A DNA stretch of 7,308 nt from a bacterium (GTDB lineage: Bacteria; Thermosulfidibacterota; Thermosulfidibacteria; Thermosulfidibacterales; Thermosulfidibacteraceae), in the NCBI GenBank assembly GCA_027022065.1, contig JALVZS010000166.1, positions 1 to 7,308 of the forward strand, given 5' to 3'. The number at the start of each line of letters is the position of its first letter. Positions within the stretch are counted from its first letter, which is position 1. This document shows positions 861 through 7,308 of the stretch, piece by piece. Below the pieces are notes generated by a model. That model did not search any database, was not told where the DNA came from, and was given only the letters and a program-made list of their open reading frames with translations. A program made the position numbers and the translations under genes.

Positions 861-2027
861 ATGATAAAGAATGTGGACTTTATGATGCTGGAGGAGTTTC
901 TTACCGAAGAGGAGAAGATCGTTAGGGATACCACCAGGAGGTTTGTGGAAAGCGAGATAATGCCCATCATTCCTGAGTGTTACGAGAAGGGCGAGTTTCC
1001 CAAAGAGCTTATCCCCAAGATCGCGGAGCTGGGCCTTTTGGGCATAACCATACCGGAGGAGTATGGGGGAGCTGGTGCCAGCTATTTCTGCTATGGACTT
1101 GCCTGTCAGGAGCTGGAGTGGTGCGACAGTGGTTTGAGAAGCTTTGTTTCTGTCCAAAGCTCCCTGTGCATGTTTCCCATATACCAGTATGGTTCTGAGG
1201 AGCAGAAGAGGACGTACCTTCCTCCCATGTGTAGAGGAGAAATTATAGGCTGTTTTGGTCTCACGGAGCCTGATGCCGGCTCTGATCCTGCGAGCATGAG
1301 GACCACGGCTAAGAAGGTGAAAGGGGGATGGGTGCTTAACGGTAACAAGACCTGGATAACCAATTCGCCCATAGCCCATATAGCTATTGTTTGGGCGAAG
1401 ACCGAGGAAGGGGTTAGAGGTTTTATAGTGGAAAGGGGAACTCCGGGATTTTCTACACCTGAGATAAAGATGAAGATGTCCCTGCGTTTCTCTCCTACAG
1501 GTGAGATAGTGTTGGAGGATTGCTTTGTGCCTGATGAAAACATGCTTCCCGGAAGCGTTGTGGGCATGAAGGCTCCCCTTTCCTGCCTCACTAGGGCAAG
1601 ATACGGTATAGCGTGGGGAGCGGTGGGCATGGCAGCTTTCTGCTTTGAAACGGCCCTTAACTACACCAAAGAAAGGGTGATGTTCGGCAAGCCCTTGGCA
1701 TCATTCCAGCTTATCCAGAGTGATCTTGCTGATATGTTTACAGAGATAACCAAGTGCCAGCTTCTGGTTTACAGGCTGGGCAGGCTCTTTGACGAGGGAA
1801 GGGCCAATCATGTCCATGTATCCATGGCTAAAAGGGCCTGCACCATGATGGCCTACAACGTGGCAAAGAAAGCCAGGGAGCTTCTGGGTGGAAACGGTAT
1901 AAGTCTAGAGTATCATGTTATAAGACATGTTATGAACGCAGAAACCACCACAACCTATGAGGGAACAAGCAAGATACACTCGCTCATACTTGGAAGGTAC
2001 CTCACAGGTATAGATGCCTTCCGCTAG
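861..2027 (+). CDS. gcdH: Glutaryl-CoA dehydrogenase (acyl-CoA dehydrogenase family), predicted decarboxylating
   Basis: A complete 388-residue flavoenzyme of normal family length. It would oxidise glutaryl-CoA and decarboxylate it to crotonyl-CoA, passing electrons to an electron-transfer flavoprotein (not in this window). The acyl-CoA dehydrogenase signature is at residues 132-143 ([12 protein letters not shown]), GNKTWITNS is at 161-169, the ARYGIAWG block characteristic of GCDH is at 246-253, and LLGGNGI is at 341-347. The catalytic base is E367 in TTTYEGT. R93 in DSGLRS matches the human Arg94 that binds the substrate's free carboxylate. E86, S94 and Y366 also match human residues (Glu87, Ser95, Tyr369) that have been linked to decarboxylation, so the decarboxylating type is favoured over the non-decarboxylating type of some sulfate reducers. 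It follows the CoA-transferase by 16 bp and probably shares its transcript. Similarity to human GCDH along the whole length is strong from memory of that sequence. Another short-chain dicarboxylyl-CoA as substrate remains possible. Confidence 0.93.
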
Positions 2028-3335
2028 TTTCTTAGGAGGGGGTTCCCCCTCCACCTTCATTATAGCGTAGTAAAAGCCTGTGGAGGCGTTTTCTGGAAAT
2101 ATGCGTTTCTCCTCTATGAGCCTCAGGCCGAATTCTTCCTGCATCCAGCGGGTGTTCTCTTCGTTCTCCTCCCTCCAGATGGAGCAGGTGGAGTAGAGGA
2201 GGTATCCTCCGGGTTTGACCAGGGGGATGAGGGAGGAGAGAAGCCTTCTCTGTATTTCCACACACTCTTTGTATCTGATTGGGGTGGTGAACCACCTCCT
2301 TTCAGGGTGCTTTCCCCAGGTGCCTGAGCCGCTACAGGGTAGATCCGCGTGAACTGCATCAAACTGCACTTTAAAAGGGGGATGTGCAGCATCCGCCACC
2401 AAGATAGGCGGTAGGGGAAGCTTGAGCCTCTCAAAGCCATTTACGAGCTTCGTGAGCCTTAGCTTGGATATGTCCGCACAGACAAACCTTATATCGGACC
2501 TCAACTGAGTTACCAGAGAGCTCTTCCTTCCTGGGGCTGCACAGGCGTCAAACAGCGTGGCTCCTTCTGGAAGTAGGTCTAGGAGTCTGCTGATTCCGTA
2601 TGCCGTGTTCACATCCTGAACGATGAACATGCCTTCTTTGTACTCTTCCGTCCTCATAACAGGGTAGGTTCTGGGCATGGTCAGAAACGGGTATACCTTG
2701 GCCTTTTCCACCTGGAATCCGTATTTTTCTGTTAGAGCTTTTCGCAGTGCATCTACATCGGCAAGCCTTGTGTTTACCCTGATGCTCATGGAGGGGTGCT
2801 GGTTCATGTGTTCCATAAGCTTTAATGCCTCTTCTTGGCCAAACTGCTCCGCTAGCCTTTCTGCTATCCACTTGGGGAAGAAGTGGTGCCAGAACGCCCA
2901 CTCCAGAAAGTCGGCGGGAGGGTTTATCCTGAACTTCTTTACCTCAAATAGCACATACCTGAGCCTGTTGATGAACCCTTTTTTGACTTTCTTTTTTCTA
3001 AAGAAAGGACCTAAGGACTTTAGCACATGATTAGGGTTTTTGTTGTCAAAGTAGACTTCAAAGGCTCCCACCCTCAGGCAGGCCCTGAGCAGAGAGGACG
3101 ACTCCTCAAGAGGTTCTTTTTGAACCTCCTCTATCATCCTGTTTACTACGCCCCATCTCCTTCCAAGCTCGTTGGTGATGTATGTGGCGAGCTCTTTGGC
3201 CTTCTGATGGTAGTTGTACTTTTCAAATATCTGCTCCCTTGCAAGGACAAGGTCCTTGTTGAACTCTAGTATCTCCGTTACCCTTACCGCCAGCTCTAAT
3301 CCCAGCGAAAAGAGTGGACCACCTCCACCACCCAT
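1905..3335 (-). CDS. RsmB/NOL1-NOP2/Sun-family RNA cytosine-C5 methyltransferase, with an unusual C-terminal extension
   Basis: An AdoMet-dependent enzyme that would make m5C in rRNA (RsmB makes m5C967 of 16S rRNA) or tRNA. Residues about 10-135 resemble the NusB-like N-terminal domain of RsmB, including [15 protein letters not shown] and FINRLRYVL. The catalytic domain follows. Motif I is DACAAPGRK (263-271), motif IV is [10 protein letters not shown] (331-340) with C334, the cysteine that assists product release, and motif VI is YSTCS (381-385) with C384, the presumed nucleophile. Motif I has Arg at 270 where the family nearly always has Gly. The ATG at 3335 overlaps the end of hemE by 40 bp and has only a weak AAGGTGAG abutting it, so translation may be coupled. 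Relatives end shortly after the [10 protein letters not shown] segment (421-430). The last 46 residues are mostly antisense to the dehydrogenase gene, a 123-bp overlap. A one-base indel near 2038-2049 would end the protein at about 2024 or 2032. The exact RNA target cannot be told. Confidence 0.85.
2035..2052. terminator. GC-rich perfect inverted repeat at a convergent gene junction, possible two-way transcription end
   Basis: GGAGGGGG at 2035-2042 and CCCCCTCC at 2045-2052 are perfect reverse complements separated by TT. The likely fold is a 7-bp stem with a GTTC (or GAAC) tetraloop on either strand's RNA. It starts 8 bp after the dehydrogenase stop codon and sits where the oppositely oriented methyltransferase gene would be expected to end. 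No run of T follows it on either strand, so it is not a textbook intrinsic terminator. It may act with Rho or as a 3'-end stabiliser. Confidence 0.5.
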
Positions 3336-4324
3336 CTCACCTTGTCTGGGTCTGTGTCTGGGAAGACACCGTGTCCAAGGTTGAATATGTGAGCATCTGC
3401 CTTCCTTCCATGAATAAGTATAGCCTCAACCCTCTTTTTTAGCTCCTCTTTGGGCAAAAACAGAGCGGACGGGTCAAGGTTTCCCTGAATAACCCTGTGT
3501 TTTCCCAGTATATTTATAGCATCCTCTAAAGAGATGCGCCAGTCAACGGAGAAGGCGTTACAGGGAAGCTTTTTGATAACCTTTAAAGAGCCGCAAGTCC
3601 CCGTGGAGAAGTAAATCACAGGTATTTTCGTTTTGCTTATCTCCTCTACGAGCTTTTTTGTGTGCTCAAATACATACCTTTCGTAGTCTTCTGGAGATAG
3701 TGCCCCGACCCACGAGTCAAATACCTGAAAGGCATCAACACCTGCCGAAATCTGCATTTTCGCATATTTTACGAGCAGTTCCGTTGCAAGCTCCATGAGC
3801 CTTCTGAAGGCCTCGGGATGCTCAAACATGAACCTCTTTGTGCTGTGGTAGTGCTTTGAGGAGCCTCTTTCCAAGATGTAGCTTAACAGTGTGAACGGTG
3901 CGCCACAGAAGCCTATAAGCGGGGTGTAGGGGTGTGCGTTTTTGAAGCCTGAGACTATTTCGGCAACAAAGCCCAGCTCCTCTATGTTGTATGGATGAAG
4001 GAGCTTTTCGCTTTCCGTTAGAGGAACGAGACTTTCCACAATGGGCCCTATTCCCTCTTTTATCTCCACCTTCAGGCTTTTTAAGGGAAGAAGAGGCACC
4101 AAAAGATCAGAAAAGAGTATAGCCGCATCCACCTTCAGTAGCTTTACAGGAAGGGCGGTGATCTCTACCGCAAGCTCCACATTTCTACATAGATCAAAGA
4201 AGCTCTTTTCTTTCGCTCTCAGCCTTCTGTACTCCGGCAGGAATCTTCCCGCCTGCCGCATGAACCACACGGGAGCGGTGGAGGACCTTCTGCCTTTGAT
4301 GGCTTCAAGGAAGGGGCTGTCCAT
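3296..4324 (-). CDS. hemE: Uroporphyrinogen III decarboxylase
   Basis: A complete 342-residue protein of normal length that removes the four acetate carboxyls of uroporphyrinogen III to give coproporphyrinogen III in the cytoplasm, without a cofactor. The N-terminal signature [16 protein letters not shown] (18-33) carries the substrate-binding arginines R23 and R27. D73 in ILFSDLLV is the essential Asp that contacts the pyrrole nitrogens. [13 protein letters not shown] (138-150), FDSW (202-205), QGNLDP (280-285) and FNLGHGV (314-320, with the conserved His 318) complete the family pattern. The ATG shares one base with the stop codon of the upstream radical SAM gene (TGATG), and the start of the downstream methyltransferase gene lies inside its last codons. 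It is therefore almost certainly cotranscribed and translationally coupled with both. No key residue is missing. Confidence 0.97.
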
Positions 4325-5388
4325 CAGGAGTTCTCCTTAAGCCTTTTTGGGATGTAGGAGCAGTAGGGCTCTTCCGCCAGATAATCGCCATAAACCGCAT
4401 ACGCCCTCGCCCTGCATCCTCCACAGATGCTGAGGTACTCGCAGACTCCGCACTTTCCCTTGTAGCTTTTAAAGTCCCTGATCCTGTTGAAGAGCTCGGA
4501 CTCCTCCCAGATCTTTACGAATCCTTGCTCAAATACGTTGCCTCCAGATAGGGGGAAGTAACTGCAGGGCTTCACGTTTCCGTGGCAGTCTATAAAGGCT
4601 ATGTGCTGCGCCGCAACGCAACCTTTGGCTCCTCCCGTTGAAAACTTGAGGGAGCGCCTCTGGTAGTTTATCCCGTGCTTCTTCGCCAGCTGATGGCATA
4701 TCCTGTAGTACATGGGAGCGCATGTGGGCCTTACAAGCATATCCTTTTCCTCAAGCTCCATGAAGAAGTGCCACTCCAGTATTTTCTCATAGTCCTCCTT
4801 TGATATGAGCTCTTCCATTATCTCCTCTCCCCTTCCCACGGGCACAATCATAAACATATACCAGGCCACAGGCTTCAGTTTCTTTACAAATCTGTAAACA
4901 TTTTCAATGTCGTGCTGGTTCCTCTTGGTAAATGATGAATTTATCAGAAACGGGATGCCGTGCTTTTTAAACAGCTCAACGGCCTTCATGGTGGCTTCAA
5001 AGGCGCCTGGCTGCCTTCTGAAGTTATTGTGTATCTCGGAAGTGGAGCCATCTACGCTAAGGGACACTATCTGTATGCCTGAGTCCTTTATCTTTAAGCA
5101 CACCTCATCGTTTACCAGCGTCCCGTTTGTTGCCATACACATGCGGAGTCCCTTTTTGCTGCCGTACTCTGCTATGATGTGCCAGTCATCCCTTAATAAG
5201 GGTTCTCCACCTGTAAGAACCACCGTTGGCTTTGCGTAAGAGGAGATCTCATCTATCAAAGCAAAGGATTCCTTTAGTCCGAATCTTCCAGGATCGCTTG
5301 AGACGGAGGATGCGCTTCTACAGTGTATGCAGTTGAGGTTGCAAACTCCCGTTATCTCCCACGCTATCCATCTGGGTTCCCACTTCAT
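4324..5388 (-). CDS. Radical SAM/SPASM protein of the AhbD/NirJ haem-biosynthesis type
   Basis: A complete 354-residue protein. The radical SAM cluster motif is C16xxxC20xxC23, preceded by [14 protein letters not shown], which is very like the start of AhbD and NirJ proteins. GGEP (60-63) and the SAM-binding beta strands follow. The C-terminal SPASM region supplies ligands for an auxiliary 4Fe-4S cluster: candidates are C257, C268, C275, C313, C316, C322, C325 and C343, including the [19 protein letters not shown] segment typical of this family. AhbD turns Fe-coproporphyrin III into haem by oxidative decarboxylation of two propionates, NirJ acts in haem d1 synthesis and AhbC acts on didecarboxysirohaem. 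Direct coupling to hemE favours a tetrapyrrole substrate and, by inference, the AhbD-type reaction. An in-frame TAA lies 9 bp upstream of the ATG, so the start cannot be earlier. The nearest Shine-Dalgarno-like GGAGA is 12 nt away, longer than usual. The subfamily within AhbD/NirJ/AhbC is not settled. Confidence 0.85.
4333..4338 (-). promoter_or_regulatory. Ribosome binding site of hemE
   Basis: On the - strand AAGGAG lies 8 nt before the hemE ATG (4324), inside the last codons of the radical SAM gene. It confirms the hemE start and the tight coupling of the two genes. Confidence 0.75.
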
Positions 5389-5396
5389 GGTGCATT

Positions 5397-5426
5397 AGTA
5401 TCTCCACAAATTGTATTTCTTGTCAA
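5397..5426 (-). promoter_or_regulatory. Candidate sigma-70-type promoter for the radical SAM-hemE-methyltransferase unit
   Basis: On the - strand there is a perfect TTGACA (+ strand 5421-5426), an 18-nt spacer and GATACT (5397-5402, four of six matches to TATAAT). Transcription would start about 2-3 nt before the ATG at 5388, giving an almost leaderless message. The Shine-Dalgarno-like GGAGA lies inside this promoter and would be lost. Either the message is leaderless or the real start of transcription is further upstream. Confidence 0.4.
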
Positions 5427-5444
5427 ATTGGGCTATCCTAAGCA

Positions 5445-5452
5445 AAAGGAGG
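5445..5452 (+). promoter_or_regulatory. Ribosome binding site that fixes the start of the double-ACT gene
   Basis: AAAGGAGG lies 6 nt before an in-frame GTG at 5459. This near-perfect site selects GTG 5459 over the longer upstream in-frame TTG at 5411. Confidence 0.85.
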
Positions 5453-5458
5453 TTTGCT

Positions 5459-5992
5459 GTGAGGAGGTTTGTGCTCTTTACCATAGGGGAGGACAGACCA
5501 GGGATCGTTTCTGCCATAAGTGGGGTTCTTTACAGGATGCACTGCAATATTGAAGACTCCTCCATGACCATACTGCGGGGCAACTTCGCCATTATACTCA
5601 TAGTCGCCGTTCCCGATGAGGTGGATGTTTCTGTTCTGGAGAGCATGCTGAGGGAGGAGGCGGAAAGGCTCGGCCTCTTTCTCACGCTCAGGCCCATAGA
5701 GGGGGATGGAAGAAGCACGAAGTATGTCAGCTACTGCCTGATAAAGATCTTCGGCGAGGACAAAACGGGGATAGTCTATAAAGTGTCAAACCTTCTTGCC
5801 TCCATGGGGGTTAACATATCGGACATGAGAACGAAGCTTGCTGGAAGGGACAAGAAGCTTTACGCGATGCTGATAGAGGCGGAAATACCAGAGGAGGTTG
5901 TTTTTGAGGAACTGAAGGAGAGGCTGGAAAAGGTGGCGGAGGAGCTTGACGTGGATATCACAGTGGAAGAGGTTCCCACCGTTCACATGTGA
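5459..5992 (+). CDS. Double-ACT-domain regulatory protein, GcvR-like
   Basis: A 177-residue protein made of two ACT domains, at about residues 3-78 and 89-172. Each opens with the ligand-loop motif of the family: GEDRPG at 10-15 and GEDKTG at 99-104. The loops are followed by helices (IVSAISGVLYRMHCNIED and IVYKVSNLLASMGVNISD). ACT domains bind small ligands, often amino acids, and GcvR of E. coli (190 residues, same layout) modulates the glycine cleavage regulator GcvA by protein contact. No DNA-binding or catalytic domain is present, so a sensor or partner role is likely. Nothing in the neighbourhood names its ligand or target. The GTG start is chosen for its strong ribosome site; the reading frame could be extended upstream to 5411, but those 16 residues are outside the family pattern. 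The gene ends 8 bp before the preferred start of the deformylase gene. Confidence 0.85.
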   Translation: MRRFVLFTIGEDRPGIVSAISGVLYRMHCNIEDSSMTILRGNFAIILIVAVPDEVDVSVLESMLREEAERLGLFLTLRPIEGDGRSTKYVSYCLIKIFGEDKTGIVYKVSNLLASMGVNISDMRTKLAGRDKKLYAMLIEAEIPEEVVFEELKERLEKVAEELDVDITVEEVPTVHM

Positions 5993-5996
5993 GGTG
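5991..5996 (+). promoter_or_regulatory. def: Ribosome binding site that decides the deformylase start
   Basis: GAGGTG, overlapping the stop codon of the ACT gene, lies 4 nt before an in-frame TTG at 6001 (6 nt if counted from GAGG). The alternative GTG at 5989 has no comparable site at a workable distance. Confidence 0.6.
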
Positions 5997-6000
5997 TCTT

Positions 6001-6516
6001 TTGGCGGTAAGGAAGATCATAACCTATCCCAATCCCATCCTCAGGGCCACATGCAGGGAGGTTCTGGAGCTTGATGGAAGGATCCAGGGCATCGTAAGGG
6101 ACCTAATGGACACCATGAACCACTACAGCCACTCCGTTGGCATAGCCGCTCCTCAGATAGGGGAGCCTTACAGGATTATATGCGTGGATGTGTCAAGAAG
6201 TCCTCATTATAAAAAGAAAAACCACGGTCTCATCGTTCTGATAAACCCTGTGATTCTGGAGGGGGACGGGGAAAAGACCACAAGAGAAGGGTGCATGAGC
6301 GTGCCTGATTTTGTGGGGTATGTTACGAGAAAAAGGGTGGTTTTGGTTAGGGGGCTTGATCCCTCAGGCAGAGAGGTGGAGATAGAGGCCAAGCACCTTG
6401 AAGCGGTGGTTCTACAGCACGAGATAGATCATCTGGACGGTATACTGTTCATAGACAGGATAACGTCTCCCTCCTCCCTCATGAGAAGGGAGGAGCTTGT
6501 GTCTAAGAAAATTTGA
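6001..6516 (+). CDS. def: Peptide deformylase
   Basis: A metalloenzyme that removes the N-formyl group from new proteins as they leave the ribosome. All three family motifs are present (numbering from TTG 6001): VGIAAPQIG (46-54) for the GxGLAAxQ motif, EGCMS (96-100) with metal ligand C98, and QHEIDH (139-144) with metal ligands H140 and H144 and catalytic E141. At 171 residues the length is normal. The N-terminus AVRKIITYPNPILR fits the usual start of deformylases and supports TTG 6001, although GTG 5989 would add four residues and overlap the ACT gene by 4 bp. The gene is probably cotranscribed with the ACT gene. No fmt gene, its frequent partner, is visible downstream; a compositionally different gene follows instead. 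The C-terminus ends soon after the SLMRRE helix, as is usual for short bacterial forms. Confidence 0.96.
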   Translation: MAVRKIITYPNPILRATCREVLELDGRIQGIVRDLMDTMNHYSHSVGIAAPQIGEPYRIICVDVSRSPHYKKKNHGLIVLINPVILEGDGEKTTREGCMSVPDFVGYVTRKRVVLVRGLDPSGREVEIEAKHLEAVVLQHEIDHLDGILFIDRITSPSSLMRREELVSKKI

Positions 6517-6541
6517 CTGGATATTTGTTTTGGGTTAAAAT
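6513..6541 (+). promoter_or_regulatory. Near-consensus sigma-70-type promoter of the exported Asn-rich protein gene
   Basis: TTGACT (6513-6518, five of six matches) and TAAAAT (6536-6541, five of six matches) are separated by exactly 17 nt. The -35 box overlaps the TGA of def (6514-6516). Transcription would begin near 6548, leaving a leader of about 30 nt before the ATG at 6579. This is the best promoter match in the window and suggests the last gene is transcribed independently of def. Confidence 0.65.
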
Positions 6542-6578
6542 AAGTTAACAATGTTGCCATTTGTAACTTGAGATAGCA

Positions 6579-7308
6579 ATGAAGGGGATGGGTAAAGTAC
6601 TTTTAGTCCTTGTTGTCTTTATTTTGATTTTCAAAGGGTCTTATGCTTTACCACCTTCGCAAAATGGAACTGCGGATGAAATGGGGTATGTGTTGGAACA
6701 TGCAGAGGAGAGATTTCCATATCTGAGATTGTTTTTAGATTATGTTGTTAATTATTATCAACAACTTGATCCTGAGGAGAAGCAAGAGTTTGCTATAATA
6801 AATATGATGTATTTATTCTATATTGATAGAATTTTAAATGATACTTATGCAAATGTGGAAGGAGCAGAGCCTCCATATTTAGAGTTATATAATCGTTTTA
6901 TTGATGATCTAATTAATGGAAATGGCGTCTTAAGTCCAAGAGATCTTTATATCTCACTTTTAAAAGGATTTGGTAGTGTTGATAAGCAATTGACCCACAC
7001 TTATGGAGAGCCAAATCTTAGTGGTAAAAAGAAGGAAGAGAATGGGAAAAATGAGGATGAAAGTGGAAGGAATGATAAATATAATGAATCTCAAAGAAAT
7101 GATAATAATGGAGAGAATAAAAACAACAACTCTCATTCCAATAATCCTTCAGGGGTAAATAATGGAAATTACGGTTATGGTGACTATGGAAACGGTAATC
7201 CTTATGGCAATTCAAATTATCCTTCTTCTGGTTCCTCGAGTGGTAGTTCTTCTTCCAACCATCAAGGTTCATCTAATACTTCTAATGTAAGCAATAATGG
7301 TAATGCTA
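6579..7308 (+). CDS. Exported protein of unknown function with an Asn/Gly/Ser/Tyr-rich tail, 3'-truncated by the window
   Basis: The frame is open from ATG 6579 to the window edge, giving 243 complete codons with no stop. An in-frame TAA at 6564-6566 bars an earlier start; ATG 6588 is a possible alternative. A classic signal peptide is seen: MKGMGK, a hydrophobic stretch at residues 7-18, and a likely signal peptidase I site after SYA (A23). Residues 24-147 contain hydrophobic and acidic stretches that look helical (for example the region around FLDYVVNYYQQL), with no motif I recognise. From about 149 the protein becomes low-complexity: a charged K/E/N part, an N/G/Y part around 195-214 and a Ser-rich part after 215. 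Of the last 96 residues, 26 are Asn. No cysteine occurs. Base composition is strikingly AT-rich: 12 of 60 bases are G or C at 6781-6840, against 37 of 60 at 1021-1080. It has its own promoter. Possible roles such as a surface, matrix or filament protein are guesses. Confidence 0.85.
   Translation, partial: MKGMGKVLLVLVVFILIFKGSYALPPSQNGTADEMGYVLEHAEERFPYLRLFLDYVVNYYQQLDPEEKQEFAIINMMYLFYIDRILNDTYANVEGAEPPYLELYNRFIDDLINGNGVLSPRDLYISLLKGFGSVDKQLTHTYGEPNLSGKKKEENGKNEDESGRNDKYNESQRNDNNGENKNNNSHSNNPSGVNNGNYGYGDYGNGNPYGNSNYPSSGSSSGSSSSNHQGSSNTSNVSNNGNA

Follow-up and report, generated by a model that had tools for sequence, protein, structure and literature searches.

Among the terms assigned to predicted Q/N-rich prion-like proteins of bacteria, those for the cell wall and the surface are over-represented (PMC4606120). 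Surface proteins of Sulfolobus carry many N-glycans, which have been suggested to stabilise them (PMC4287180), and in archaea membrane and secreted proteins are over-represented among the products of rare, fast-evolving genes, an excess that is slightly larger in thermophiles (PMC4158269). Here, a putatively exported, Asn-rich protein without recognised relatives is encoded at the end of a contig of a draft MAG (1.57 Mb, 251 contigs, 88% complete, 2.66% contamination). The window analyzed was this contig, C166, from end to end (7308 bases). The reading that we put forward, and to which we give about an even chance, is a truncated gene for a Sec-exported orphan of AT-rich origin that follows the ACT-def pair of a thermophile, and whose Asn/Ser/Gly stretch would be a stalk, linker or tail. 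The features concerned are listed in Table 1.

Table 1. Features at the downstream end of the window.
Feature	Position	Strand	Remarks
Protein with two ACT domains	5411..5992	+	Host composition
Peptide deformylase (def)	5989..6516	+	Host composition; 72% identical to G001
Promoter-like site TTGACT-17-TAAAAT	6513..6541	+	10/12 consensus matches; consensus match only
AT-rich gap, deformylase stop to ORF start	6517..6578	.	30.6% GC; composition changes here
Orphan ORF	6579..7308	+	243+ codons, open at contig end, 33.6% GC, foreign codon use
Signal peptide, residues 1-23, probable cleavage between SYA and LPP	6579..6647	+	Read by eye; core Kyte-Doolittle mean 3.9
Residues 24-147, predicted mostly helical, no family match	6648..7019	+	Low-confidence model, pLDDT 52.7
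Asn/Ser/Gly/Tyr-rich low-complexity segment, residues 148-243+	7020..7308	+	Predicted disordered; cut by contig end

The orphan ORF (6579-7307, forward strand) extends over 243 codons from its ATG with no stop up to the contig end at 7308. Over 6517-7308 its frame contains 2 stops, both upstream of the ATG, compared with 18 and 38 in the other two forward frames, indicating that it is the real coding frame. A Sec-type signal peptide could be read by eye in residues 1-23 from K2 and K6, the hydrophobic core VLLVLVVFILIF and the SYA/LPP junction, which supports the export proposed in the first-pass annotation, and the product is probably a surface protein. The promoter-like site could drive the ORF alone; the excess of such sites in the region is weak (6 vs. 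3.5 +/- 2.0 in shuffles). The same annotation had described the N-terminal domain as unrecognised and folded-looking. The former agrees with the profile search using residues 24-147, which gave no family match, while the latter is unproven by the structural models: 5 helices were predicted in residues 24-147 modelled alone, with a poor mean pLDDT of 52.7, and the model of all 243 residues was also poor (mean pLDDT 43.8).

With residues 1-147, residues 24-147 or the whole ORF product as queries, the Pfam, NCBIfam and PADLOC profiles gave no family match for residues 1-147 or 1-243. No credible homologue of the product was found among PHROGs, PDB sequences, viral contigs, phages and plasmids, in whole-genome searches (60, 386, 44 and 136 genomes; run without a positive control), or in pattern scans of GTDB contigs, which reach close relatives only. 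Two weak genome matches, G002 (E 0.0068) and G095 (E 0.006), were at chance level for 386 genomes, and the place matched in G002 reads as nuoF. A Foldseek search with the poor model returned E values of 5 or more and nothing credible. The PHROG profile phrog_3225 matched residues 145-241 (E 0.0016), which would suggest a phage-derived structural protein, adaptor Ad4-like, and shuffling the segment, 3 times in full and 7 times locally, did not reproduce the match. However, it reached 19 bits in the middle of the profile only and lay wholly in low-complexity sequence, for which reason the identity was rejected; one local shuffle gave E 0.29 with another family, the window contains no phage gene, and the phage searches gave no match. 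Phage adaptors are not known to carry a signal peptide. A phage origin of this kind is extremely unlikely.

The 96 residues 148-243 contain 26 Asn, 20 Ser, 15 Gly, 6 Tyr and 5 Asn-Gly pairs, and there is no Cys in the 243 residues of the ORF; the first-pass counts of Asn, Asn-Gly and Cys were exact. A charged part is followed by an Asn/Gly/Tyr part and then by a Ser/Gly/Asn part in residues 148-243+, and the label "tail" for the segment is unproven because no stop is reached before the contig ends. The Asn-Gly pairs themselves are no signal, since their number is close to that in shuffles of the same composition (4.1 +/- 1.6). The Asn density is high by comparison with the host: the maximum per 96-residue stretch was 10 and the median 5 in 141 sampled host ORFs, among which no further Asn-rich genes were found. 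A DNA-pattern scan for other Asn-rich genes gave one match; the pattern misses the ORF itself and is therefore insensitive.

The open frame at 7307 and the disorder predicted for residues 148-243 are consistent with a linker in a larger secreted protein, either an enzyme or an adhesin, whose domain for catalysis or binding would lie past the contig end. The last part of the ORF product, SSGSSSGSSSSNHQGSSNTSNVSNNGNA, resembles a domain linker. Residues 1-147, however, are without a known domain and nothing is visible past the contig end, and we regard a linker of this sort as rather unlikely.

The first-pass annotation also called the protein prion-like. On a reading of this type, the ORF product would be a prion-like or amyloid component of a matrix or filament and would self-assemble by way of its Asn/Gly/Tyr segment. 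The long, Q/N-rich low-complexity segment and the surface enrichment reported for predicted bacterial prion-like proteins (PMC4606120) would agree with this. Against it, an approximate PAPA-type score lay between -0.36 and 0.03 at the positions sampled in residues 151-211; it stayed below zero for residues 136-196 and was 0.03 to 0.06 thereafter. Its maximum of 0.059 exceeded the threshold of 0.05 only in the Ser-rich last 20 residues, which are cut by the contig end. In addition, charges and Pro are interspersed in the segment, there is almost no Gln, the DNA repeats of the region are short and two-copy only, without a curli-like repeat unit, and the neighbouring secretion genes for which the annotation suggested looking are absent from the window. 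These results do not support the claim, and self-assembly of this kind seems very unlikely.

The orphan ORF differs markedly from the host in composition. Its GC content is 33.6%, compared with 48.6 +/- 2.8% in host ORFs (z about -5), and its GC3 is 0.239 vs. 0.544 +/- 0.058 (z about -5). The codon score (-0.204; host mean about 0) was below that of all 194 host ORFs (194/194). As the N-terminal part is as alien in codon choice as the Asn-rich part, the bias is not caused by Asn codons. Judged by composition, the ORF was probably acquired recently from an AT-rich source. The shift sits right after the def stop. A second AT-rich gene (34% GC), coding for an Eco57I-type methylase in contig C240, adjoins core genes and a contig end, and another AT-rich stretch is located inside contig C12 (L126). 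The methylase gene (L137:1-633, reverse strand) is cut by the contig end, and its neighbours read as homoserine dehydrogenase and a murA-type gene.

The genes upstream of the ORF belong to a pair of host composition. The ACT-protein gene overlaps the def start, and the two stay together in relatives (L004-L008, L023-L025). Among named records, L023 (JAADEW010000025.1, titled Deferribacteres bacterium, MAG) is the closest in deformylase sequence; the host genome codes for a second deformylase in contig C32. A relative from the family of the host has tsaD at the place of the ORF. In the nearest relative, G001/L023, tsaD lies on the opposite strand and converges on def a few bases past the def stop, and in L005 tsaD likewise comes after def, while in L007 and L008 a different, unrelated exported gene occupies this place. 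A search of the assembly found no tsaD; a 30% match, limited to a short stretch, probably represents the related TsaB. This absence fits a gap after the contig end, in which tsaD, the real neighbour, probably lies. Elsewhere in the window (3296-5388, reverse strand), hemE, above its NCBIfam cut-off, adjoins a gene for a radical SAM/SPASM protein closest to the heme b synthase AhbD, under the cut-off (408 of 500 bits); the pair possibly belongs to a siroheme-dependent heme route. An RsmB/F-type rRNA methyltransferase with a NusB-like N-terminus is encoded at 1905-3335 (reverse strand), and its listed 3' end overlaps an opposite-strand acyl-CoA dehydrogenase ORF (1905-2027).

The sharp change in composition exactly after def might also mark a chimeric contig, in which the assembler attached to def a piece, 6517-7308, of another, AT-rich organism of the sample; this thermophile would then have no Asn-rich protein. 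The contig ends 792 bases past the change point, the expected tsaD is missing, the Asn-rich segment has a mesophile-like composition, and the genome is a MAG of 251 contigs with 2.66% contamination, all of which are in keeping with a chimera. However, the AT-rich genes or stretches beside core genes in C240 and within C12 make an insertion plausible, and, as an insertion predicts, the start of the ORF is whole and the break falls in an intergenic gap and not inside a gene. A chimera appears rather unlikely, although a chimeric contig would look identical to the acquired orphan that we put forward, for which no homologue or donor was found.

The host is a thermophile, as suspected in the first-pass annotation. 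Contig C147 (L133 and L108) contains a 1145-residue open frame for a full-length reverse gyrase, which scored 1183 bits against a cut-off of 471.7. The protein is 56% identical to the copies of both other genomes of the family, which share 72% with each other, and this likeness makes a stray contaminant unlikely. Reverse gyrase was above the family cut-off in 3/3 genomes of the family and in none of the genomes searched from the rest of the order. The composition samples covered 145 to 234 kb of the genome, and the sampled proteins showed 44.1% IVYWREL, a charged-minus-polar value of 12.3 and an EK/QH ratio of 4.2. By the formula of Zeldovich, this IVYWREL fraction predicts about 78 C. One tRNA-Leu of the genome has 69% GC; no 16S gene was found in this genome. 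The annotation had called the Asn-rich segment surprising in a thermophile, and its density is indeed out of place in such a proteome.

Several prerequisites of an N-glycoprotein are present, namely an export signal (by eye), 7 N-X-S/T sites in the ORF and a transferase in the genome. The latter is an STT3/PglB-type oligosaccharyltransferase in contig C105 (L159:5503-7617, reverse strand) with both Pfam domains above cut-off and the motif WWDIGY; STT3/PglB matches were also observed in G001 (partial, at a contig end) and G003. The encoded transferase makes N-glycosylation of the Asn residues possible, and the exported sites could carry glycans. The Asn-rich part contains 4 sites, compared with 5.4 +/- 1.8 in shuffles, and is thus not enriched in them, and none of the 4 has an acidic residue at -2. 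PglB of Campylobacter prefers an acidic residue at this position.

In the acquired-orphan reading, cleavage of the signal peptide would leave a small helical domain at the membrane or on its outer side. The Asn/Ser/Gly/Tyr stretch would form a flexible, hydrophilic, surface-exposed stalk, linker or tail, which may be connected to an anchor or a further domain encoded past the contig end. In the cell its Asn residues might be partly N-glycosylated, or deamidated, which a disordered spacer may tolerate. At 78 C, an exposed Asn-Gly pair would have a half-life of roughly 25 minutes, as scaled from an assumed 24 h at 37 C and 90 kJ/mol. Such an exposed, Asn-Gly-bearing segment could also be retained for a function in a thermophile living at about 75-80 C, where N-glycans would shield it or its rapid deamidation would serve as a built-in switch from neutral to acidic; we consider this highly improbable. 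Should the junction prove real, the residue that withstands heat least would be abundant in an exported segment of a thermophile, and it would become testable how far Asn-rich sequence is limited at high temperature. At present the locus chiefly exemplifies a surface orphan, probably acquired, at a point where the assembly breaks off, and with its alien composition and its position at the tsaD site, the ORF tells of gene acquisition (or a chimeric end) more than of the thermophile's own protein design.

Compared with known systems, the ORF product resembles the bacterial Q/N-rich prion-like proteins (PMC4606120) in combining Asn with Gly, Ser and Tyr and in its probable association with the cell surface, but differs from them in having hardly any Gln, many charges and a low prion-propensity score. 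Predicted export, Asn-X-Ser/Thr sites and an STT3/AglB/PglB-type transferase in the genome are shared with the S-layer proteins of Sulfolobus (PMC4287180), whereas the ORF has no S-layer domain match, its sites are not enriched in the Asn-rich part and its glycosylation would be hypothetical. The exported orphans of genomic "dark matter" (PMC4158269) are archaeal, while the present case is bacterial and consists of a single truncated gene with no island; like them, it combines a narrow distribution, predicted export and a lack of recognised domains with a thermophilic setting.
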